DNA of 64,000 nt, taken from Phocaeicola salanitronis DSM 18170 (lineage in GTDB: Bacteria > Bacteroidota > Bacteroidia > Bacteroidales > Bacteroidaceae). Every line of letters starts with the position of its first letter. Position 1 is the first letter of the stretch. The notes under the pieces are model-generated. The model had not been told where the DNA came from and did not search any database. It saw nothing but the letters and a program-made list of their open reading frames with translations. The stretch covers positions 248,001 to 312,000 of the forward strand of contig NC_015164.1 in assembly GCF_000190575.1 (NCBI RefSeq), in the 5' to 3' direction. The position numbers and the translations under genes are program-made. Below are positions 3,750 through 31,967 of this stretch, piece by piece.

Positions 3750-4244
3750 ATGTTATTAAAGGCGATAAAGAAGAAATTCATTCAGGAACTGACAGGGACA
3801 GGTCTGATCCTGACAATCGGAACGCTGTTGTTTTTCCATTTCTTTTTCCCGGAAAGGTATTTCCAATGGTTTCCGCTGATTCCTGTGTTTTTCTATGTCT
3901 TTGGCCTTTTCTATATTTATATGTTTGAATTCAGCTATCAGCTGGGGGCAGACAAAATAGCGATGACTTATTTGATATGTAAGGTGCTGAAATTTATTTT
4001 GAGCGCTTTGGTACTGATATTTTACGGATTCGTAATAGAAGACGAGGTGGGTGCTTTCGTGGCTGCATTCGTTTTCTTTTATTTTGCGTTTCTGGTTTTT
4101 GAAACCCGTTTCTTCCTTCGCTTTGAAGCGAAACTGAAATTAAGTAAACAAGTAAAAAATGAAAAAAATACGGTACATAGTAATAACACTGCTGCTTTTG
4201 TTGGCAATTCCAACCACGACGCTGAAAGCGGAAACGGGCAGTGA
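3750..4244 (+). CDS. AtpI-like membrane protein in the ATP synthase operon
   Basis: A 164-residue protein with about four hydrophobic segments (near 18-32, 38-58, 70-95 and 98-120) and a polar C-terminal tail. It sits between epsilon and subunit a, where many operons carry AtpI, a helper for c-ring assembly, but no AtpI sequence motif is recognised, so the role is inferred from position. The last 86 bp overlap the start of atpB in another frame, so the polar tail is encoded by the same DNA as the atpB signal peptide. Both starts look genuine: the four hydrophobic segments lie upstream of the overlap, and the atpB reading gives a clean signal sequence. Confidence 0.7.
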   Translation: MLLKAIKKKFIQELTGTGLILTIGTLLFFHFFFPERYFQWFPLIPVFFYVFGLFYIYMFEFSYQLGADKIAMTYLICKVLKFILSALVLIFYGFVIEDEVGAFVAAFVFFYFAFLVFETRFFLRFEAKLKLSKQVKNEKNTVHSNNTAAFVGNSNHDAESGNGQ

Positions 4245-5223
4245 TGGGGAGATAGATGTGAACGAATTGATATTCGGGCATATCGGTGACGCGTACGAGT
4301 GGCATATAGTCTCGTTTGGCGACACTCATCTCACTATCCACCTTCCGGTAATCGTAAAAAGCAGTACGGGCTGGCATGTGTTCTGCTCTTCTCATTTGGA
4401 AGGAGGAGAAGAATACGAAGGCTTGTACATTGCCGAGGGGGGTGCCAATGACGGTAAGATAGTGGAACGGAATGCTGCCGGTGAAGAGGTGAGGCCTCTT
4501 GACATTTCCATAACCAAGAATGTGCTTGGCTTGTTCATCAACAGTGCGTTGCTGGTGGTGATTATGCTGGGCTGCGCGCGCTGGTATAAGAAACACGCGT
4601 TAGAGCAGGGAGCTCCTAAAGGCGGTGTGGGAATGATAGAGGCAACCGTAATGTCTATTTATGACGATGTAATCAAAGGCTGTGTAGGTGAAGATTACAG
4701 ACGTTATGCACCTTATTTGCTGACCGCTTTCTTCTTTGTGCTGGTGAATAACCTGATGGGATTGATTCCTATCTTTCCGGGAGGGGCGACTGTAACAGGT
4801 AATATTGCCATTACGATGGTCTTGGCATTATGCACGTTCCTTTTCACCAATATTTTCGGTACAAAGGCTTATTGGAAAGACATTTTTTGGCCTGAAGTTC
4901 CAACATGGCTGAAAGTGCCGGTACCTATGATGCCGTTGATAGAATTCTTCGGTATATTCACTAAACCGTTTGCATTGATGATTCGTCTTTTTGCCAATAT
5001 GATGGCAGGCCATGCCGCTATGTTGAGTTTGATAGCAATCATTTTCATCACGGTTAAGGCAGGACCGGTAATCAATGGTTCAATGACAATCGTCGCTGTG
5101 GCATTCGGAATTTTCATGAATGCGCTCGAGCTTTTGGTCGCATTTATCCAAGCGTATGTGTTCACGATGCTTTCGGCCGTGTTTATCGGTTTGTCGAGAG
5201 TGAAAGAACACGCAGAAAAATAA
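4159..5223 (+). CDS. atpB: Fo ATP synthase subunit a
   Basis: Subunit a, the membrane stator that forms the proton half-channels; 354 residues. The N terminus is a typical signal peptide (hydrophobic LLLLLAIPTTTLKA, residues 11-24), followed by an extracytoplasmic extension of about 100 residues that the E. coli protein lacks; this is known in Bacteroidota. The essential arginine is Arg276 in IRLFANMMAGH, and the final helices contain the conserved LELLVAFIQAYVFTML. It overlaps the preceding gene by 86 bp and is followed 41 bp later by atpE. Confidence 0.96.
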   Translation: MKKIRYIVITLLLLLAIPTTTLKAETGSDGEIDVNELIFGHIGDAYEWHIVSFGDTHLTIHLPVIVKSSTGWHVFCSSHLEGGEEYEGLYIAEGGANDGKIVERNAAGEEVRPLDISITKNVLGLFINSALLVVIMLGCARWYKKHALEQGAPKGGVGMIEATVMSIYDDVIKGCVGEDYRRYAPYLLTAFFFVLVNNLMGLIPIFPGGATVTGNIAITMVLALCTFLFTNIFGTKAYWKDIFWPEVPTWLKVPVPMMPLIEFFGIFTKPFALMIRLFANMMAGHAAMLSLIAIIFITVKAGPVINGSMTIVAVAFGIFMNALELLVAFIQAYVFTMLSAVFIGLSRVKEHAEK

Positions 5224-5252
5224 AGTAATAAATTAAAAGTATAACCAATTAA

Positions 5253-5519
<267 letters not shown>

Positions 5520-5534
5520 TAAAAACGATACATT

Positions 5535-6038
5535 ATGGGATTATTAACTCCGGATCCGGGGCTGGTGTTCTGGATGATTATCACGTTCGGCGTCGTATTC
5601 GTCTTGTTGGCGAAATATGGCTTCCCCGTAATCATCAAGGCAGTAGAGGACCGGAAAGCATATATCGATAATTCGTTGAAGGCTGCACGCGATGCGAATG
5701 AACAGTTGGCGAACGTGAAGCTCGAAGGCGAAAAGATTCTTGCTCAGGCACGTGAGGAGCAGAACCGCATCTTGAGTGAGGCCGCCGTTACACGCGACCG
5801 CATTGTAAAAGACGCTCAAGACCGGGCTATTACCGAAGGCCAGCGGCTGATGGCGGAAGTGAAAAAACAGATTGAAACGGAAAAAGAAAGTGCAATCCGT
5901 GATATCCGCCGCCAAGTGGCTGTCCTTTCGGTCGAAATTGCCGGGAAAATCATGCGGAGTAAGCTTGCCGATACAAAAGAGCAGAATGCTTTGATTGACC
6001 GTATGTTGGATGAAATGCTTGAATCTTCTAAAAAATAA
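5535..6038 (+). CDS. atpF: Fo ATP synthase subunit b
   Basis: Peripheral-stalk subunit b, 167 residues. One membrane helix (about residues 10-32, VFWMIITFGVVFVLLAKYGF) is followed by a long charged helix predicted to form the dimeric coiled coil, rich in Ala, Glu, Lys and Arg, ending in the delta-binding region. Length and position between c and delta are standard. It is 15 bp after atpE and 6 bp before atpH. Confidence 0.95.
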   Translation: MGLLTPDPGLVFWMIITFGVVFVLLAKYGFPVIIKAVEDRKAYIDNSLKAARDANEQLANVKLEGEKILAQAREEQNRILSEAAVTRDRIVKDAQDRAITEGQRLMAEVKKQIETEKESAIRDIRRQVAVLSVEIAGKIMRSKLADTKEQNALIDRMLDEMLESSKK

Positions 6039-6609: not shown

Positions 6610-8205
6610 ATGCCAGAAAATAATAATATTAAACCCAGTGAAGTTTCAGAAGTGCTTCTCCAGCAATTGCAGGGGATTGACACTTCACTGAAATTCGACG
6701 AAGTGGGTACCGTGCTTCAGGTGAGTGATGGCGTGGCTCGTATTTACGGATTGCGTAATGCCGAAGCTAACGAATTGCTTCAGTTTGAGAATGGTATCAT
6801 GGGAGTCGTGATGAATCTGGAGGAAGATAATGTCGGAGCCGTTTTGTTGGGTCCTACCGACCAGGTAAAAGAAGGTATGGTAGTAAAACGTACTAACCGT
6901 ATTGCCTCTATTAATGTAGGCGAGGGAATGTTGGGACGTGTTATCGACCCGTTAGGCGTGCCTTTGGACGGGCGTGGCGAAATCACAGGGGATACGTGTG
7001 AGATGCCTTTGGAGCGCAAAGCGCCGGGAGTAATCTTCCGCCAGCCGGTTACCGAGCCGTTGCAGACAGGGTTGAAAGCGATTGATGCGATGATACCTAT
7101 CGGACGCGGGCAACGTGAGCTGATTATCGGCGACCGTCAGACAGGTAAGACCGCCATTGCGATTGATACCATTATCAACCAGCGCCATAATTATGAGGCA
7201 GGTGATCCGGTATATTGTATCTATGTCGCTGTAGGACAAAAAGGGTCTACGGTGGCGAGTCTTGTAAATGTATTGCGCGAAAAAGGCGCGATGGATTATA
7301 CGATTGTGGTAGCCGCTACCGCTTCCGATCCTGCTGCCTTGCAGTATTTTGCGCCGTTTGCGGGAGCTGCTATCGGCGAATATTTCCGCGATACAGGCCG
7401 TCATGCCTTAGTCGTTTACGATGACTTGTCAAAGCAGGCGGTCGCTTATCGTGAAGTGTCTTTGATTTTGCGCCGCCCCTCAGGACGTGAAGCCTATCCG
7501 GGCGATATCTTCTATCTGCATTCCCGTTTGTTGGAGCGTGCGGCGAAGATTATCAGCCAGCAAGAGGTGGCAGAAACCATGAACGATTTGCCCGCAAGCC
7601 TGAAAGGGAAGGTGAAAGCCGGCGGTTCGCTTACCGCATTGCCTATCATTGAGACACAGGCAGGCGACGTTTCGGCTTATATTCCTACCAATGTGATTTC
7701 TATTACCGATGGCCAGATATTCTTGGAAACAGACTTGTTCAACCAAGGTTTCCGTCCTGCCATCAACGTGGGTATTTCTGTATCCCGTGTCGGTGGTAGC
7801 GCACAGGTCAAGAGTATGAAGAAAGTGGCAGGTACGTTGAAAATCGACCAGGCGCAATACCGCGAGCTGGAGGCATTCTCTAAGTTCAGCAGCGATATGG
7901 ACCCTGTCACCGCTATGGCTATTGACCGCGGACGTAAGAATAATCAGTTGCTTATCCAGCCTCAATACACGCCGATGCCGGTAGGTGAACAGGTGGCTAT
8001 CTTGTATTGTGGCACGCACTCGTTGATGCGGGAAGTCCCCATAGACAAAATACGTGCTTTTCAAGATGCGTTCTTGACCACCATGCGTGCAAATCATCAA
8101 AAAGATGTATTGGATGTCTTGGCGGCTGGCAAGATCAGTGATGAGGTAACGGCAATCATCGAAAAAGTAGCGGCAGATACAGTAGGACAATTTAAAGAAA
8201 AATAA
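6610..8205 (+). CDS. atpA: F1 ATP synthase subunit alpha
   Basis: Non-catalytic nucleotide-binding alpha subunit, 531 residues. The Walker A loop GDRQTGKT is at residues 174-181, and the arginine-finger region [14 protein letters not shown] lies near 385-398. An N-terminal amphipathic stretch ([18 protein letters not shown]) is where delta normally binds. The gene ends 5 bp before atpG. Identification is secure. Confidence 0.98.
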
Positions 8206-23800: not shown

Positions 23801-24829
23801 ATGAAGAGACAAATGAAAAAATATCTCTCTGCGCTGTTGTTGGCGCTCTCTGTAGCATCTGTCGGTGCTCAAGATTTTAGTTGGAAAGATGCGGTTCCCG
23901 AGATTCACGGTACAGTGCGTGGAAAGTACGAATATCAGACTTCAACAAACGCACAACGCTTTCAGGTGCGTAATGCGCGTGTAAGCGCTACGGGCAAGGT
24001 GCTTCCTATCGTGAGTTATAAAGCTGAAATAGACCTTTGCGATGAGGGGGTTATCAAGATGCTGGATGCCTATGCAAGGGTTACTCCATTTAAAGGTTTT
24101 GATGTCACCATCGGGCAAATGCGTGTGCCTTTTACCATCGATGCGCACCGTTCTCCCCATTTGCAATATTTCGCAAACCGTTCGTTCATTGCCAAGCAGA
24201 TGGGAAGCTTGCGCGATGCGGGTGCCACGTTGAAATATTCAATGAAAGAGAGCTTCCCTTTTGCTATCGAGGCAGGATTGTTCAGCGGGTCCGGATTGAC
24301 CGAGCAGAAGGGATGGCACAAGGCGCTTTCCTATTCAGCCAAGTTGGAATTAATGCCGTTCAAGGGATACAACTTGACCTTGAGCACGCAGCGCATCCGC
24401 CCTTTCGACCGGAATATTTATATGTATGACCTCGGTACGTATTACGAATGGAACAATTGGCACTTTGAAGTGGAAGGGATGTATAAGGACTATGCGCATT
24501 CCGATTTCAAGAGCGTGTGGGCGGTAGACGCGTTCGTTAATTATGATTATTTTATCAAGAAAGAGAAGAGCCTGATAAAGAAAGTCTCATTTTTGGCGCG
24601 TTTCGACTACATGGGGAATAACAGTGATGAATTGGATGAAGATGGAATCGATTATATCATAACCGATTATGAGCGTAAACGTATTACAGGCGGCTTGACG
24701 TTTAGCTTCGGAAAACCGTTTCAGGCAGACCTCCGTTTGAATTATGAAAAATATTTCTATGATGATGATGCGTTCGCATTGGAGTCGGAACAAGATAAAT
24801 TGGTAATAGAAATGATGGTTCGCTTCTGA
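23801..24829 (+). CDS. OprO/OprP-type outer-membrane porin
   Basis: A 342-residue outer-membrane barrel: signal peptide (YLSALLLALSVASVGA), then strands of the phosphate-selective porin O/P family, including RNARVSATGKVLPIVSYKAE, FKGFDVTIGQMRVPFT and the loop IAKQMGSLRDAGA. The C terminus ends with Phe (EMMVRF), the usual barrel-assembly signal. These porins pass anions such as phosphate or polyphosphate, though specificity is not proven in Bacteroidales. The start at 23801 is chosen because an in-frame upstream codon lies in the promoter. A terminator follows. Confidence 0.85.
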   Translation: MKRQMKKYLSALLLALSVASVGAQDFSWKDAVPEIHGTVRGKYEYQTSTNAQRFQVRNARVSATGKVLPIVSYKAEIDLCDEGVIKMLDAYARVTPFKGFDVTIGQMRVPFTIDAHRSPHLQYFANRSFIAKQMGSLRDAGATLKYSMKESFPFAIEAGLFSGSGLTEQKGWHKALSYSAKLELMPFKGYNLTLSTQRIRPFDRNIYMYDLGTYYEWNNWHFEVEGMYKDYAHSDFKSVWAVDAFVNYDYFIKKEKSLIKKVSFLARFDYMGNNSDELDEDGIDYIITDYERKRITGGLTFSFGKPFQADLRLNYEKYFYDDDAFALESEQDKLVIEMMVRF

Positions 24830-24856
24830 TAATTTGCTTTTATAAACATTTATTTT

Positions 24857-24896
24857 GCCTTTCCGGTTGTATTGGTTACACCTGGGAAGGCTTTTT
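24857..24896 (+). terminator. Terminator after the porin gene
   Basis: GCCTTTCC (24857-24864) pairs with GGGAAGGC (24884-24891), with one G-U pair, followed by TTTTTG. Confidence 0.7.
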
Positions 24897-24900
24897 GTTT

Positions 24901-25024
24901 AATGAATGTCCGAAATTAGCCAACGTAGGAGCGGGGTTCGCCGCGCCCGTATGTGTCCACGTGGATGTTTTCGGGCAGGCAAACCCTGCCCCTACAAGTT
25001 ATTGGTAAAATGCGGACATTCATT
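24901..25024. repeat. Palindromic element with 12-bp ends
   Basis: The perfect 12-bp ends AATGAATGTCCG and CGGACATTCATT bound a 124-bp element. Inside, CGTAGGAGCGGGGTTCGCC faces GGGCAGGCAAACCCTGCCCC, another inverted pairing, GC-rich unlike the surroundings. It sits between the porin terminator and the reductase operon. Confidence 0.8.
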
Positions 25025-25097
25025 GTATAAAACTTGTTTATTTGTATGATTTTGTGGGTTTTTCCATAAATCCGTACTTTATTTCAAGGTTTTGATG

Positions 25098-25105
25098 TAT
25101 CTTTA
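25098..25105 (+). promoter_or_regulatory. Candidate -7 element for the reductase operon
   Basis: TATCTTTA differs from TAnnTTTG only at the last base and is 25 bp before the ATG at 25130. The -33 element is not clear. Confidence 0.35.
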
Positions 25106-25129
25106 GCCCCCGTTAAAAGTTTGGGAAAC

Positions 25130-25900
25130 ATGGAGCAGGAAACTTTTCATCTTTTCTTGTGGGTGATGTCTGGCATAGCCTTGATTGTATTTGTCGCCCT
25201 TTATTTCGTGAAAGCCGGGTATGGCATTTTTCGGACGCCTTCATGGGGATTGTCTGTCAATAATAAAGTGGGATGGGTGCTCATGGAGTCACCCGTATTT
25301 ATTGTGTTGCTCGTCTTGTGGGCATATAGCGGGATAGGGGTTGCCTTCCCTCAATTCTTGTTTTTGTTGCTTTTCTTATTGCATTATTTCCAGCGTTCGT
25401 TCGTTTTTCCGTTTTTGATGAAAGGGAAGAGCAGGATGCCGGTGGCTATTATGGCTATGGGCATTGTATTCAATGTATTGAACGGGATGATGCAGGCCGG
25501 AGGGCTTTTCTATTTTAACGAGGGCGTGCCTACGGGTATCGGGCTGGGCTATCTGCTGGAGCCGCATGCCTTGATCGGACTTGCTTTGTTCTTTATCGGG
25601 ATGGGCATTAACTTGCATTCCGATAGTGTTGTCCGGAATTTGCGCAAGCCCGGCGATACCCGTCATTATCTTCCGCAGAGAGGGATGTACCGGTATGTGA
25701 CTTCTGCCAATTATTTGGGTGAACTGATAGAATGGACGGGATTTGCTGTTCTTACGGCTTCGCCTGCCGCATGGGTATTTGTTTGGTGGACTGCGGCAAA
25801 TTTGGTTCCTCGCGCAAATGCCATTTATCATAAATATTGCGATGAGTTTGGCGCTGAGGCAGTAGGAAAACGGAAACGAATTATACCTTATATATATTGA
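25130..25900 (+). CDS. Steroid 5-alpha-reductase family protein
   Basis: A 256-residue membrane protein with about seven hydrophobic segments, matching the size and layout of human SRD5A1/2. The conserved NADPH-binding region is plain: GMYRYVTSANYLGELIEW at about residues 185-202 closely resembles the human GLFSYVSGANFLGEIIEW. NLRKPGDTRHYLPQRG and the C-terminal KRIIPYIY also match. A WVLMESPVF motif near residue 50 carries the glutamate that lines the steroid pocket in the human enzyme. It should reduce the delta-4 bond of a 3-oxo-steroid to the 5-alpha product at the inner membrane. It is first in an operon with an old-yellow-enzyme reductase (20 bp away) and an SDR. ATG 25130 is preferred to a TTG three codons earlier. 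Confidence 0.9.
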   Translation: MEQETFHLFLWVMSGIALIVFVALYFVKAGYGIFRTPSWGLSVNNKVGWVLMESPVFIVLLVLWAYSGIGVAFPQFLFLLLFLLHYFQRSFVFPFLMKGKSRMPVAIMAMGIVFNVLNGMMQAGGLFYFNEGVPTGIGLGYLLEPHALIGLALFFIGMGINLHSDSVVRNLRKPGDTRHYLPQRGMYRYVTSANYLGELIEWTGFAVLTASPAAWVFVWWTAANLVPRANAIYHKYCDEFGAEAVGKRKRIIPYIY

Positions 25901-25920
25901 TAGTAGTAAATTATTATACA

Positions 25921-27150
25921 ATGAAAGATTCGAAATTGTTTACTCCGGTCACGTTGGGACCGTTGACCTTGCGGAACCGTACCATCCGTTCGGCTGCATT
26001 CGAGAGTATGTGTCCGGGGAATAAACCTTCGCAGATGTTGCTGGATTATCATCGGTCTGTAGCTGCAGGAGGAATAGGGATGACTACGGTGGCGTATGCT
26101 GCCGTTACGCAAAGCGGTTTGTCTTTCGACCGTCAGTTGTGGATGCGTCCTGAAATCGTTCCGGGTTTACGCGAGCTGACCGATGCGGTGCATAAGGAAG
26201 GGGCTGCGGCCGGCATTCAGTTGGGGCATTGCGGAAACATGTCGCATAAAAGCATCTGCGGGTGCATGCCTGTAGGAGCCAGCAGCGGATTCAATTTGTA
26301 TTCGCCGACTTTTGTGCGCGGGCTTCGTGCGGATGAGTTGCCTGAAATGGCACGTGCTTACGGGCGTTCGGTCAATCTGGCCCGTGAAGCTGGTTTTGAT
26401 GCGGTAGAGATTCATGCGGGGCATGGCTATCTGATTAGCCAGTTCCTTTCTCCTTCTACCAACCATCGGAAAGATGAGTACGGCGGTTCGCTTCAAAACC
26501 GGATGCGTTTTATGGATATGGTGATGGAAGAAGTGATGAAAGCGGCAGGCAATGACATGGCGGTTTTGGTCAAGATGAACATGCGCGACGGATTCAAGGG
26601 AGGCATGGAATTGGACGAAACGTTGCAGGTGGCAAAACGTTTGGAGCAGTCGGGCGCGCATGCGTTGGTGTTGAGCGGAGGATTTGTAAGCAAGGCTCCG
26701 ATGTATGTGATGCGTGGCGAGATGCCTATACGGAGTATGACGCATTACATGGATTGCTGGTGGCTGAAGTATGGTGTACGCATGGTAGGCAAGTGGATGA
26801 TTCCCAGCGTGCCTTTCAAAGAGGCTTATTTCTTGGAAGATGCATTGAAGTTCCGGAAGGAAATCAAGATGCCGTTGGTATATGTAGGCGGTTTGGTATC
26901 GCGTGAGAAAATAGATGAGGTGCTTGACTGCGGTTTCGAAGCCGTACAGATGGCGCGTGCTTTGCTGAATGAGCCGGGATTTGTGAACCGTATGCGGGAG
27001 GAAGAGAATGCCCGCAGCGGTTGTAAGCACAGTAATTATTGCATTGCGCGTATGTATTCCATTGAAATGGCATGCCATCAGCATTTAAAGGAAGAATTGC
27101 CTCCGTGTCTGAAGAAGGAAATAGAGCGAATCGAGAAAAGACAGGCGTAG
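25921..27150 (+). CDS. Old-yellow-enzyme-family NADH:flavin oxidoreductase, putative 3-oxo-delta-4-steroid reductase
   Basis: A 409-residue FMN-dependent TIM-barrel reductase of the old yellow enzyme family. Visible are LFTPVTLGPLTLRNRTIRSA at the N terminus, GIQLGHCGN, the active-site HAGHGYLISQFLSP (His165 to Pro178) and NHRKDEYGGSLQNR. A Cys-containing C-terminal tail (CKHSNYC) resembles the start of an iron-sulfur region, but the FAD/NADPH half found in BaiCD- and 2,4-dienoyl-CoA-reductase-like enzymes is absent. In the context of a 5-alpha-reductase and an SDR, it most likely reduces the same 3-oxo-delta-4 bond to the 5-beta product, but the substrate is inferred from neighbours. ATG 25921 is preferred to a TTG overlapping the previous stop. 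Confidence 0.88.
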   Translation: MKDSKLFTPVTLGPLTLRNRTIRSAAFESMCPGNKPSQMLLDYHRSVAAGGIGMTTVAYAAVTQSGLSFDRQLWMRPEIVPGLRELTDAVHKEGAAAGIQLGHCGNMSHKSICGCMPVGASSGFNLYSPTFVRGLRADELPEMARAYGRSVNLAREAGFDAVEIHAGHGYLISQFLSPSTNHRKDEYGGSLQNRMRFMDMVMEEVMKAAGNDMAVLVKMNMRDGFKGGMELDETLQVAKRLEQSGAHALVLSGGFVSKAPMYVMRGEMPIRSMTHYMDCWWLKYGVRMVGKWMIPSVPFKEAYFLEDALKFRKEIKMPLVYVGGLVSREKIDEVLDCGFEAVQMARALLNEPGFVNRMREEENARSGCKHSNYCIARMYSIEMACHQHLKEELPPCLKKEIERIEKRQA

Positions 27151-27152
27151 AT

Positions 27153-28004
27153 ATGGAAAATGAACGGAAATTAGCGGTTGTTACCGGTGCCGATGGAGGT
27201 ATGGGCAGGGAGATAACCCGTGCGGTGGCTATGGCAGGCTATCGGGTGATAATGGCAAGTTGCCGTCCCCGGAAAGCGGAAGAAGTGCGCCGGATGTTGC
27301 TTCAGGAACAAAATGGTTTGCAACTTGAAATCCGGGAACTTGATTTGGCTTCGCTAGCTTCTGTCTCGGCTTTTGCCGAGCGGTTATTGGCAGAAGGTGT
27401 TCCGATCTGCTTGTTGATGAACGATGCCGGAACGATGGAAACGGGCAGGCACATTACCGAAAACGGGTTGGAGCGTACGGTGAGTGTGAACTATGTAGGT
27501 CCTTATCTCTTGACGCGCAAACTGCTCCCCTTGATGAAAGAGGGGAGCCGCATTGTGAATATGGTATCGTGTACCTATGCCATTGGGCGGTTGGATTTTC
27601 CCGATTTTTTCACCAAAGGGAAGAAAGGGGCGTTCTGGCGCATTCCTATTTATAGCAATACCAAGCTGGCACTGACGCTTTTCACAATCGACCTTGCCAA
27701 TCGGGTGCGCGAGAAGGGAATCGTTGTTAATGCGGCCGATCCAGGCATTGTATCAACCGATATCATTACGATGCACATGTGGTTTGACCCCTTGACGGAT
27801 ATTCTTTTCCGTCCTTTTATACGTACTCCGCGGAAAGGGGCTGCTACAGCCGTTCACTTGTTGTTGGACGAAGAAGCGGGCAAACGGACCGGAACGCTGA
27901 ACGTAAGTTGCCACGCCAAACCGCTTTCGGATAAATATGTGCATCATGTGCAGATGAAAGAACTTTGGGACAGAACTGAAGAGATTGTAAAGCCTTGGCT
28001 ATAA
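27153..28004 (+). CDS. Short-chain dehydrogenase, putative 3-hydroxysteroid dehydrogenase
   Basis: A 283-residue NAD(P)-dependent SDR. The cofactor motif TGADGGMG is at residues 11-18, an NDAG loop (variant of NNAG) near 90, and the catalytic Tyr/Lys in YSNTK (Tyr167, Lys171) with Ser139 upstream. The wide Ser-Tyr spacing and the YSNTKLAL context resemble retinol-dehydrogenase-like SDRs, which act on hydrophobic alcohols. Just 2 bp after the reductase gene, it is probably translated with it and would oxidise or reduce the C3 hydroxyl of the steroid or bile acid; whether 3-alpha or 3-beta cannot be told from sequence. A terminator follows. Confidence 0.85.
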   Translation: MENERKLAVVTGADGGMGREITRAVAMAGYRVIMASCRPRKAEEVRRMLLQEQNGLQLEIRELDLASLASVSAFAERLLAEGVPICLLMNDAGTMETGRHITENGLERTVSVNYVGPYLLTRKLLPLMKEGSRIVNMVSCTYAIGRLDFPDFFTKGKKGAFWRIPIYSNTKLALTLFTIDLANRVREKGIVVNAADPGIVSTDIITMHMWFDPLTDILFRPFIRTPRKGAATAVHLLLDEEAGKRTGTLNVSCHAKPLSDKYVHHVQMKELWDRTEEIVKPWL

Positions 28005-28081
28005 AAACGAAAGGGCGTTCTCAAAATAAGCCTTGGCAAAATTTAAGCAAGCTTTTATTTGATAAAAAGGATTGTGTAACA

Positions 28082-28117
28082 GTCGGCTAATTCATTGCGG
28101 GTTAGCCGGCTTTTTTG
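28082..28117 (+). terminator. Terminator of the reductase operon
   Basis: GTCGGCTAA (28082-28090) pairs with TTAGCCGGC (28102-28110) around an 11-nt loop and is followed by TTTTTT on the plus strand. Confidence 0.75.
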
Positions 28118-28236
28118 TATGGAGTACGGGATATAGCACAAAGATAAACAACGGCACTATCCGGTTAGCTATCTTTCCTGTAATGGCGAAAATTGTAAAA
28201 TTTAAATAGGGATTTTCTGCTTTTTTGAATTGCTTG

Positions 28237-28324
28237 CGGAAGCTGGGGGATTCGAACCCCCGGTACGGGAAATCCGTACGGCAGTTTAGCAAACTGCTGG
28301 TTTCAGCCACTCACCCAAACTTCC
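28237..28324 (-). tRNA. tRNA-Ser (GCT), copy 2 of the cluster
   Basis: 88-nt tRNA with a long variable arm as in serine tRNAs. The acceptor stem is GGAAGTT/AGCTTCC, the T-arm CCGGGGGTTCGAATCCCC, and the anticodon GCT in the loop TTTGCTAAA. CCA is not encoded. Its sequence is identical to the copy at 28435-28522. Confidence 0.95.
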
Positions 28325-28337
28325 AATAAGCTGATTG

Positions 28338-28410
28338 TAGCGCATACGGGAATCGAACCCGTGTTTCAGCCGTGAGAGGGCCGCGTCCTAGGCCACTAGA
28401 CGAAAGCGCC
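28338..28410 (-). tRNA. tRNA-Glu (CTC)
   Basis: 73-nt tRNA starting GGCGCTTTCGTCTAGTGG, with anticodon CTC in loop CTCTCAC and T-arm ACGGGTTCGATTCCCGT. It reads GAG codons. The G-U first acceptor pair matches other Bacteroides tRNA-Glu genes. Confidence 0.92.
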
Positions 28411-28877: not shown

Positions 28878-28924
28878 CGCCTCATTTTTTAAATCAGTAT
28901 TAAACCACTTAAATTTTTTTGTGT

Positions 28925-31144
28925 ATGATGAATTTCAAAGAAGGACATTGGAAGTATGAAATCAACGTTACCGATTTCGTGAAAACAAACATTACCCCTT
29001 ACGAAGGCGACGCTTCTTTTCTGACAGGTCCTACTGAACGTACGAAAGCAGTGTGGAACAAATGCTTAGAGGCTCTTGCGGAAGAACGGGCTAACGGAGG
29101 CGTACGTTCACTTGATTCTTCTACCGTTTCTACTATTACTTCGTTTGCGCCAGGATACATTGATAAAGAAAATGAAGTGATTGTCGGTTTGCAGACTGAT
29201 GAATTGTTGCGTCGTGCCATTAAGCCCTTTGGTGGAATTAAAGTGGTGGAGAAGGCATGTCGGGAGAATGGTGTGGAAGTAGACCCGAAAGTAAAAGATA
29301 TATTTACGCATTATCGCAAGACGCATAATGACGGTGTGTTTGATGCCTATACCGATGAAATCCGTTCATTCCGTTCGCTGGGTTTCCTTACCGGGTTGCC
29401 CGATAATTATGCACGCGGGCGCATTATCGGTGATTACCGCCGTTTGGCATTGTATGGTCTTGACAGACTGATTGAGGCTAAACAGGATGATTTGCGCCAT
29501 TTGACCAGTCCGATGACCGATGAACGGATTCGTCTGCGTGAAGAGGTGGCAGAGCAGATTAAGGCTTTGAAAGAAATCAAGACATTGGGTGAACAATACG
29601 GTCTCGATTTGAGCCGTCCGGCTGAAACCGCTCAGGAAGCGGTGCAATGGGTATATATGGCTTACCTGGCTGCGGTGAAAGAACAGGACGGTGCGGCAAT
29701 GTCGTTGGGCAATGTGTCTTCGTTTCTTGATATATACATCGAATACGATATGGCGCACGGGAAACTGGATGAGCTCCATGCGCAGGAATTGATAGATCAG
29801 TTCGTGATAAAATTGCGTATGGTGCGTCACTTGCGTATGCAGGCATATACCGATATTTTTGCCGGAGATCCGACTTGGGTGACTGAATCTATTGGCGGAC
29901 GTTTTAATGATGGACGGATGAAGGTTACGAAGACTTCGTTCCGCTTCTTGCAGACGTTGTATAATTTAGGCCCTTCACCCGAACCGAACTTGACGGTATT
30001 GTGGAGTCCTCAATTGCCCGAAGGCTTTAAGGATTTCTGTGCCCAGGTATCTATCGATACTTCTTCTATCCAATATGAAAACGATGATTTGATGCGTGAG
30101 GTACGTGGGTCGGATGACTACGGAATCGCGTGCTGTGTGTCTTATCAGGATATAGGCAGACATATCCAATTCTTCGGGGCACGTTGCAATTTGGCAAAAG
30201 CGCTTTTGCTTGCTATCAATGGCGGGCGGTGCGAGAATACCGGTACGGTAATGGTGAAAGGCATTCCCGTATTGAGCAGCGATGAATTGAATTTCGAGGA
30301 AGTGCTTGCCAATTACAAGAAAGTGCTGAAAGAAATGGCGCGCGTGTATAACGATGCGATGAACATTATCCATTACATGCACGACAAGTATTATTATGAA
30401 AAAGCGCAAATGGCGTTTGTCGATACGAATCCTGAAATCAACTTGGCTTACGGCGTGGCAGGCATGTCTATAGCTGTCGATTCGCTTTCTGCTATCAAAT
30501 ACGCCAAAGTAAAAGCACGCCGTAATGACATCGGTTTGACAGAAGGTTTCGATATCGAAGGCGAATTCCCTTGTTTCGGAAACGATGATGACCGGGTAGA
30601 CCATTTGGCTGTAGACCTGATTTATTATTTTGATGAAGAGTTGAAAAAACTTCCGGTTTACAAACATGCGAAGCCTACATTGTCCATTCTTACGATTACT
30701 TCGAATGTAATGTATGGAAAGAAAACCGGAGCAACTCCCGACGGGCGTGCTAAAGGTGTGGCTTTTGCTCCGGGCGCCAATCCGATGCATGGACGTGATA
30801 AGAACGGTGCGGTCGCTTCGTTGAGTTCGGTGGCAAAATTGCGCTACCGCGATTCACAAGATGGCATCAGCAATACGTTTTCTATTGTGCCGAAGTCGTT
30901 AGGTGTAGACCGTGAGAGCCGCATTGAAAATCTGGTTACGCTGATGGACGGTTATTTTGTAAAAGGTGCGCATCATTTGAATGTAAATGTATTGAACCGT
31001 GAAATGCTGGAAGACGCAATGGTACATCCGGAGAAATACCCGCAGCTGACTATCCGTGTATCCGGTTATGCTGTAAATTTCATCAAGTTAAGCCGCGAGC
31101 ATCAGTTGGAAGTTATTTCACGTAGCTTCCATGAGCGGATGTAA
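28925..31144 (+). CDS. pflB: Pyruvate formate-lyase
   Basis: Converts pyruvate and CoA to acetyl-CoA and formate in anaerobic metabolism; 739 residues. The catalytic cysteine pair is Cys403-Cys404 in ACCVS, and the glycyl-radical site is Gly714 in RVSGYAVNF near the C terminus. The preceding [18 protein letters not shown] segment is typical. Its activating enzyme follows 94 bp downstream. The start is ATG at 28925 (or the adjacent ATG at 28928); a TTG two codons upstream is less likely. Oxygen-sensitive and expected to be cytoplasmic. Confidence 0.97.
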
Positions 31145-31169
31145 CATAATGAGTTGAATGCAGAGATAT

Positions 31170-31207
31170 ACAAACGCAGAGATTCATTTTGGATTCTCTG
31201 CGTTTGT
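31170..31207 (+). repeat. Hairpin between pflB and pflA
   Basis: ACAAACGCAGAGA (31170-31182) and its exact complement (31195-31207) form a 13-bp stem with a 12-nt loop. No T-run follows. It lies within the operon and could stabilise upstream pflB mRNA or lower pflA output. Confidence 0.7.
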
Positions 31208-31238
31208 GTCTTTACGTTTGAATCAAAAAAATAGAATT

Positions 31239-31967
31239 ATGATAAGAGTACATTCATACGAATCGTTAGGCACGTATGACGGACCGGGCATCCGGCTGGT
31301 TGTGTTTCTGCAGGGATGCAATTTCCGCTGTTTGTATTGTGCCAATCCCGATACTATCGACTGCAAGGGGGAGGGTAAAAATACCGCTCCCGAAGATATT
31401 CTGCGTATGGCGGTCAGCCAAAAGCCTTTCTTCGGAAAGAAAGGAGGCATTACATTCAGCGGAGGGGAGCCTACGATTCAGGCGAAAGCCTTAATACCTT
31501 TGTTCCGTATGCTGAAAGAAGCAGGCATTCATATCTGTGTGGATACGAATGGAAGTGTTTGGAATGAAAGCGTAAAGGATTTGTTTACGCTTGCTGATTT
31601 GGTATTGCTCGATGTGAAAGAATTCAATGATGAGCGTCATCACTTGCTTACTTTGCGCAGCAATGAGCAGACTCTTCAGACAGCTGCCTGGTTGGAAGCC
31701 AATGAGAAACCGTTTTGGTTGCGGTATGTGTTAGTGCAAGGATATAGTGCTTTCCGTGAGGATATTGAGGCATTGGGCAAACATTTTAAAGACTATCGGA
31801 TGATAGAGCGTGTGGAGATTTTGCCTTATCATACCTTGGGGGTGCATAAGTATGAAGCAATGGGCTTAAGTTATCAATTGAATTCTGTAAAACAGAATAC
31901 GCCCGAACAATTAGAAGAAGCTCGGGCATTATTTGAAGTTTATTTTAATAAGGTATTTGTGAACTGA
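31239..31967 (+). CDS. pflA: Pyruvate formate-lyase activating enzyme
   Basis: Radical-SAM enzyme that puts the glycyl radical on PflB; 242 residues. The CxxxCxxC cluster motif (Cys27, Cys31, Cys34 in GCNFRCLYC) binds the 4Fe-4S cluster with S-adenosylmethionine. GGITFSGGEPTIQ (about 70-82) is the SAM-binding GGE motif, and LLDVKEFNDERH follows. The start is ATG at 31239; an in-frame start at 31158 would place the hairpin between the genes inside the coding region. Adjacent to its substrate gene, as usual. Confidence 0.95.
   Translation: MIRVHSYESLGTYDGPGIRLVVFLQGCNFRCLYCANPDTIDCKGEGKNTAPEDILRMAVSQKPFFGKKGGITFSGGEPTIQAKALIPLFRMLKEAGIHICVDTNGSVWNESVKDLFTLADLVLLDVKEFNDERHHLLTLRSNEQTLQTAAWLEANEKPFWLRYVLVQGYSAFREDIEALGKHFKDYRMIERVEILPYHTLGVHKYEAMGLSYQLNSVKQNTPEQLEEARALFEVYFNKVFVN

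Follow-up and report, generated by a model that had tools for sequence, protein, structure and literature searches.

In this work we have analysed a window of DNA, that is, a whole stretch of 64,000 nucleotides from Phocaeicola salanitronis DSM 18170, and within it three adjoining genes which encode a homologue of steroid 5α-reductase (5AR), a flavin oxidoreductase of the Old Yellow Enzyme family (OYE) and a short-chain dehydrogenase/reductase (SDR). It is likely that these genes are the P. salanitronis version of the Δ4-3-ketosteroid A-ring cassette of Bacteroidota, although our confidence in the substrate and in the direction of the reaction, both of which we infer, as we do the stereochemistry, is much lower. 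The operon is conserved and its catalytic residues are near-invariant. Operons of this kind, combining a 5AR, a flavin oxidoreductase and a 3β-hydroxysteroid dehydrogenase (3β-HSDH), are already in print for Bacteroidota, relatives in the human gut among them, and the locus in the window is a new and well-formed member. An earlier note on this DNA had described three genes lying 20 and 2 bp apart, and the open reading frames (ORFs) were found exactly so, all on the + strand, with 20 bp between 5AR and OYE and 2 bp between OYE and SDR (Table 1). The analysis goes further on three points: an iron–sulfur-like tail of OYE, which that note does not mention, two operon subtypes with different SDRs, and carriers labelled as coming from stomach compartments.

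The product of the first gene matched the Pfam family Steroid_dh (PF02544) with an E-value of 8.8e-35 and 120.3 bits (cut-off 22.6). Compared by sequence with known structures, it matched the bacterial SRD5A 7c83 (E 1.9e-45) and the human SRD5A2 7bw1 (E 5.4e-33), which bears out the note's claim of a homologue of the human enzyme, and a profile search reached SRD5A structures at E 2.4e-67 and 8.6e-49. In a profile alignment E53 and Y86 were aligned with the Glu and Tyr of 7bw1 which we take to be its catalytic residues, and E53, H85, Y86 and R89 were kept in all 104 rows of the alignment, near-duplicates included. We assign 5AR to the SRD5A family on the profile score above the cut-off together with the putative catalytic Glu53 and Tyr86. 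The profile also matched the very-long-chain enoyl-CoA reductase 22of (E 5e-13). Could the 5AR homologue be an enoyl or polyprenol reductase, similar to TECR or SRD5A3, in an operon which makes an endogenous lipid? We regard this as very improbable: the SRD5A structures matched far more strongly, the patchy presence of the gene (24 of 201 genomes of the family) is ill-suited to core lipid synthesis, and it stands beside genes for an OYE and an SDR.

The third protein belongs to the SDR family (adh_short, E 1.4e-28), and its nearest NCBIfam subfamilies, PRK05854, PRK06197 and PRK06196, all scored below their cut-offs. It has a nucleotide motif and the Ser139-Tyr167-Lys171 set, with S139 and Y167 in 69 of 70 rows (one gap) and K171 in 68 (two gaps). 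We consider it a putative 3β-HSDH, for which the sequence cannot decide between 3β and other stereochemistry.

The Old Yellow Enzyme and its C-terminal tail

OYE matched PF00724 at E 8.3e-55 over residues 5-247 and is the sole match to this family in its genome (E <= 0.001). Against the BaiCD model NF041087 it scored 190.5 bits, far from the cut-off of 825, with the best stretch at 3-261 of 642 and one more passing stretch, and it is thus not a full-length multidomain BaiCD. At a length of 409 aa, the protein lacks the FAD/NAD half, as the earlier note had claimed. The catalytic barrel carries the His/His/Tyr residues: H165, H168 and Y170 (H-x2-H-x-Y) were present in 100 of 100 rows and stand in the same columns as the HAAHGY of YqjM.

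The C-terminal tail contains three cysteines with the spacing Cys368-x5-Cys374-x10-Cys385. Across the 100 OYE rows, C368 was found in 98, C374 in 98 and C385 in 99, and a further cysteine, C366, which is Ser in the OYE of the window, in 67. We compared the tail by profile alignment with four of six multidomain homologues from other Bacteroidota (L136 and L138 were left out), whose motif C-x2-C-x3-C-x11-C presumably binds a 4Fe-4S cluster. C368 and C374 fell on the first and third cysteines of this motif and C385 lay at most three residues from the fourth, whereas the second position is occupied by Ser371, unlike in the multidomain homologues. Cysteines therefore stand at or near three of the four positions of the 4Fe-4S site of the class of 2,4-dienoyl-CoA reductase and trimethylamine dehydrogenase (TMADH), in a comparison whose cysteine pattern could not match the spacing of the window's OYE itself. 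As controls we read the last 60 residues of single-domain OYEs at 14 loci; 13 had no cysteine and one (L149) had a single one, while for another control, L140, the frame was longer than its match and the tail is possibly not comparable.

The structure model of OYE had a mean pLDDT of 79 and a pTM of 0.85; the blocks of the tail were at 51-79 and we are only moderately sure of the tail as modelled. In the VIA-align fold comparison the best rows were the iron–sulfur flavoenzymes 6qkg, 6qkr, 2tmd and 3k30 (2-naphthoyl-CoA reductase, TMADH and histamine dehydrogenase), whose alignments ran to residue 409. Those of single-domain OYEs ended at 363-365 (rows 7-41, iron–sulfur enzymes excepted) or at 384-392 (rows 42-50), and the differences in Z among the best rows were small. 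Foldseek, ordered by E-value, placed single-domain OYEs ahead of the iron–sulfur flavoenzymes. We take the fold comparisons as support for the tail rather than as proof. From the alignments and the model we read OYE as a barrel with a degenerate iron–sulfur tail, which would be a candidate cluster site.

Linkage of the three genes and two operon subtypes

The orthologues of 5AR, OYE and SDR occur together across many genera, which argues that the operon is not a product of chance. In a set of 201 genomes of the family, with OYE orthologues taken at E <= 1e-170 and those of SDR at E <= 1e-90, we found 5AR in 24 genomes, OYE in 26, among them all 24 carriers of 5AR, and SDR in 21, all within the 24. 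OYE was thus present in 24 of 24 carriers of 5AR against 2 of the 177 family genomes without it (G050 and G088). The contiguous order 5AR-OYE-SDRa, in which SDRa is the kind of SDR found in the window, was counted by eye in 20 of the 24 carriers, the window included; in the others, 5AR was on a separate contig (G010) or another kind of SDR stood beside OYE (G011, G030 and G070). A similar count was made by hand in 295 genomes of the order, many with short contigs, where a 5AR was called close at E <= 1e-89 and OYE was taken at E <= 1e-100. There, 5AR was present in 63 genomes and close in 35. OYE was on the same strand and no more than about 0.6 kb away in 29 of these 35, and in none of the 28 in which the 5AR match was a farther one; the close ones lacking an adjoining OYE were G201, G203, G319, G347, G416 and G440. 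The loci which we refer to by name are the best 80 of 591 confirmed ones, sorted into classes by our own thresholds and with some contigs short. They comprise 42 with 5AR-OYE-SDRa, 14 with 5AR-OYE-SDRb, nine with 5AR-OYE-SDRb-SDRa2, six with 5AR-OYE, four with 5AR alone, two with 5AR-SDRa and three single cases, so that 5AR adjoins OYE in 72 of the 80 (42+14+9+6+1).

OYE and SDR superfamilies are promiscuous, and YqjM-type enzymes were among the structures nearest to OYE by sequence, so the two proteins could conceivably act on unrelated substrates, in xenobiotic or quinone reduction, and stand beside 5AR by chance. With the linkage extending across genera and families, we find this hardly credible. 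From pairwise identities we had also considered whether OYE evolves much more slowly than its partners, as a sign of co-evolution, and dropped the idea: the mean distances over 59 operons were 0.244 for OYE, 0.391 for 5AR and 0.381 for SDR, and a ratio of about 1.6 is too mild.

A few loci deserve separate mention. In L090 (Bacteroides bouchesdurhonensis) an ORF of 331 aa on the opposite strand (6968-7963) lies between 5AR and OYE. In G388, G305 and G312 the OYE match has one in-frame stop each, which may be a sequencing error or a sign of decay, and stands beside an intact 5AR match. On three contigs (G274:C11, G377:C85 and G468:C29) a farther 5AR and a farther OYE are about 9 kb apart on the same strand, possibly in another steroid gene region.

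The operon occurs in two subtypes. On a quick tree of 100 OYE rows (98 of them different, 7 unlabelled and 25 labelled by eye), the SDRa (64) and SDRb (29) architectures were separated by one change, compared with about 25 in shuffles, with a support of 77. The window belongs to the SDRa subtype together with the Parabacteroides loci L089, L098, L105 and L122, while the arrangement SDRb-SDRa2 was found in an Odoribacter metagenome-assembled genome (MAG; L097) and in Coprobacter secundus (L111). In the latter the tandem SDRb and SDRa2 genes lie at 4168-4974 and 4964-5806; that they might have opposite C3 stereochemistry, or act at different positions, is only an idea. The two subtypes suggest that the products may differ between lineages. 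In the portions available of the literature on isoallo-bile-acid clusters of Bacteroidota we found no mention of the SDRa/SDRb distinction.

Proposed chemistry, its direction and the native substrate

In the proposed mechanism OYE would interconvert 3-oxo-5β and 3-oxo-Δ4 steroids by shuttling two electrons between its FMN and the C4-C5 bond. The SRD5A family carries out the NADPH-dependent reduction of Δ4 to 5α, in practice irreversibly, and the membrane protein 5AR would do the same here, while SDR would turn the 3-oxo group into a hydroxyl, probably 3β. Operating as a relay, the three enzymes would convert a kinked 5β steroid into a flat 5α (iso-allo) steroid; given free Δ4 substrate, they could make both 5α and 5β products. 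OYE is probably reversible, so that relay and branch can both occur. The earlier note had proposed 5α and 5β products from one Δ4 substrate, and this is possible, but the published chemistry, as far as the portions available go, runs from 3-oxo-5β through Δ4 to 5α, and a relay accounts for this no less well.

Might the operon work as a branch only? 5AR and OYE, both of which belong to ene-reductase families, would then merely reduce one 3-oxo-Δ4 steroid to 5α and 5β products, chiefly as an electron sink, before SDR reduces C3. The clostridial 5β-reductase ci2350, a member of the OYE family, couples steroid reduction to the oxidation of NADH (PMC12238238, in the portion available), and the OYE of G050 and G088 occurs without 5AR, as a stand-alone reductase could. 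We nevertheless think this rather unlikely. The conversion of 5β compounds (3-oxoLCA, isoLCA and DCA, where LCA is lithocholic and DCA deoxycholic acid) to isoallo forms by Bacteroidota is reported or drawn in the available parts of PMC10382948, PMC11271093 and PMC9645264, and in this conversion the 5β hydrogen must go. Two things make us prefer the relay to a pure branch: the reported inversion of 5β compounds by Bacteroidota strains, and the position of OYE, which in most cases is next to 5AR.

Several observations weigh against the cassette as we propose it. In L087 and L128 5AR and SDRa are neighbours and the stretch gave no match for OYE, 5AR stands alone in L078, L084, L085 and L109, and G201 has two copies of 5AR and no OYE. 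Conversely, OYE occurs without 5AR in the family genomes G050 and G088 and without a 5AR match in 3 of the 49 OYE genomes of the order (G355, G484 and G486). Individual genes are thus missing from some carriers, and the dependence among the three is not a strict one. The 5β role of OYE is itself only hypothesized in the available text of PMC10382948, and in the literature covered, open-licence PMC papers, we found no experiment on the operon of the type strain BL78T. Lastly, with the FAD/NAD half missing, there is no obvious electron path for OYE. One answer to this would be that OYE is a cut-down iron–sulfur flavoenzyme in which the NAD(P)H-binding half is gone and a three-cysteine cluster site remains. 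It would act mainly as a 3-oxo-5β-steroid dehydrogenase, hand electrons, by way of the cluster, to a distinct carrier (ferredoxin, flavodoxin or electron-transfer flavoprotein) and feed the Δ4 steroid to 5AR, and the operon would be a general inverter of the steroid A/B ring, used in bile-free forestomachs too. This is a speculation which we consider improbable.

The habitats of the carriers bear on the native substrate. According to the titles of the MAG records, taken as given, 10 of the best 80 named loci come from rumen, reticulum, omasum or abomasum (L065, L070, L077, L083, L084, L108, L110, L118, L123 and L127), and nine of these have the three-gene version, four with SDRa and five with SDRb. 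On the OYE tree these nine require at least six changes of state, hence they are not one lineage. Bile enters the tract after these compartments, which makes bile acids an unlikely substrate for the bacteria living there. It is therefore unlikely that bile acids are the only native substrate, and the forestomach carriers point to a cassette of general use on steroids. It may even be that, with the same chemistry, other steroids such as plant or dietary sterones and host hormones are the native substrates and bile acids are incidental. We hold this as a tentative possibility, less likely than not, for sample labels of MAGs can mislead, and faeces, caecum and gut isolates are the source of other carriers. 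The genome of the window also has, elsewhere, a gene of the bile salt hydrolase family (PF02275; G000:C1:1773188-1774120), a family which takes in other acylases too. Moreover, gene disruption indicates that the 5AR of Parabacteroides merdae acts on a bile acid (PMC10382948, in part).

Flanking DNA and relation to known systems

Table 1. Positions of the three genes and of nearby features in the window
Feature	Position	Strand	Remarks
5AR, steroid 5α-reductase homologue (SRD5A / PF02544 family)	25130-25900	+	ATG to stop, 256 aa
OYE, Old Yellow Enzyme family flavin oxidoreductase	25921-27150	+	ATG start, 409 aa; putative 5β-reductase/dehydrogenase
SDRa, short-chain dehydrogenase/reductase	27153-28004	+	ATG start, 283 aa; putative 3β-hydroxysteroid dehydrogenase
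Intrinsic terminator	28081-28111	+	13-pair stem, then TTTTTG T-run
Repeat element, imperfect 31-nt terminal inverted arms	24893-25032	no strand	Arms 24893-24923 / 25002-25032

The terminator which the earlier note had placed at the end of the operon was recovered 77 bp past the SDR stop, outside the coordinates given there. It has the longest stem among nine terminator-like sites in 24800-28400, where shuffles gave an expectation of 4.3. The repeat element ends about 100 bp upstream of the operon and resembles a miniature inverted-repeat transposable element, its arms are 77% complementary, and it folds strongly (z -4.4). For the inner 106 bases the genome gave 20 matches, four of which, the element's own copy counted, span the full query at 90-100%. 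A regulatory role of this repeat on the operon would be a guess. The upstream Porin_O_P gene, which ends at 24829, was considered as part of the operon and rejected, since 300 bp with the repeat lie in between; among the best 80 of the 591 loci, a porin match near the operon was found in L063 only (blastp, 23% identity, 59 bits). Downstream, at 28919-31967 on the + strand, is a gene for a glycyl-radical enzyme similar to pyruvate formate-lyase, followed by one for a radical-SAM protein which is probably its activase.

The type strain BL78T, described as Bacteroides (Phocaeicola) salanitronis from chicken gut, has a chromosome and three plasmids with 4,308,663 bases; this and the following accounts, cited by PMC number, are taken from the portions available (PMC3111984). 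In chicken caecum, 3-oxo-5α-steroid 4-dehydrogenase was found in all Bacteroidetes isolates except two Odoribacter and one Parabacteroides species, and the isolates include five listed as B. salanitronis at 92% (PMC6069880). The nearest known systems are the clusters of 5AR, 5β-reductase (5BR) and 3β-HSDH in Bacteroidota (Parabacteroides merdae, Odoribacter laneus and Bacteroides dorei; Honda group; PMC10382948, PMC9645264, PMC12697870), and the window unites the same three kinds of gene, an SRD5A homologue, an OYE-family oxidoreductase and an SDR. Strains of these three species convert 3-oxo-Δ4-LCA to isoalloLCA. In P. merdae the disruption of 5AR abolished the alloLCA derivatives; in the same cluster are genes for a predicted 3β-HSDH and for an NADH:flavin oxidoreductase, the latter a hypothesised 5β-reductase (PMC10382948). 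In the indirect pathway 3α-HSDH and 5BR act before 5AR and 3β-HSDH (PMC9645264), and the accounts of isoallo-bile-acid clusters in PMC11271093 and PMC12697870 agree. Isoallo-bile acids made by gut Bacteroidota have effects on T cells and an inhibitory action on Gram-positive pathogens (PMC11271093, PMC10382948). A coprostanol route has been given for Bacteroides dorei D8 (PMC12667688), while the 5β-reductase of a coprostanol-forming Acutalibacteraceae clade was called yet unidentified (PMC13079761); a link between coprostanol formation and the operon of the window is only an idea. For assigning the 5β step and its direction, the chicken strain BL78T offers a clean genetic system: a type strain in culture, with a complete sequence, only one PF00724 gene and the three genes of the operon closely packed.

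The relation to the isoallo-bile-acid clusters of Bacteroidales, drawn in the earlier note, is strengthened by the P. merdae cluster, as far as the available text of PMC10382948 describes it, and by the four Parabacteroides loci of the SDRa subtype, which have the gene order of the window and proteins 55-82% identical to its own. One of them, L089 (An277), is nearest to P. merdae at 92% (PMC6069880, in part). P. merdae itself did not appear by name among the best 80 of the 591 loci or among the best 120 of 5511 rows of a protein search from L105, and its genes were compared by description. The window differs from its cluster in species and in host, which here is chicken, and from Coprobacter secundus and the Odoribacter MAG in the arrangement of the SDR genes. 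Like human SRD5A2 and the bacterial 7c83, to which it is homologous over nearly its full length and whose Glu and Tyr columns it keeps, our 5AR is predicted to be a steroid 5α-reductase, but it sits in an operon of a gut Bacteroidota. OYE shares its superfamily with BaiCD and ci2350 and resembles the BaiCD model chiefly in the N-terminal barrel, whereas it lacks the FAD/NAD half; its likeness to ci2350 is drawn at the level of the superfamily. Its active site reads HAGHGY, compared with MGSEGY in the multidomain Bacteroidota homologue L134. With TMADH, histamine dehydrogenase, 2-naphthoyl-CoA reductase and 2,4-dienoyl-CoA reductase it has in common three tail cysteines at or near the positions of the cluster ligands, but, unlike these enzymes, it is a single-domain protein of 409 aa with Ser at one ligand position and a cluster which is putative.

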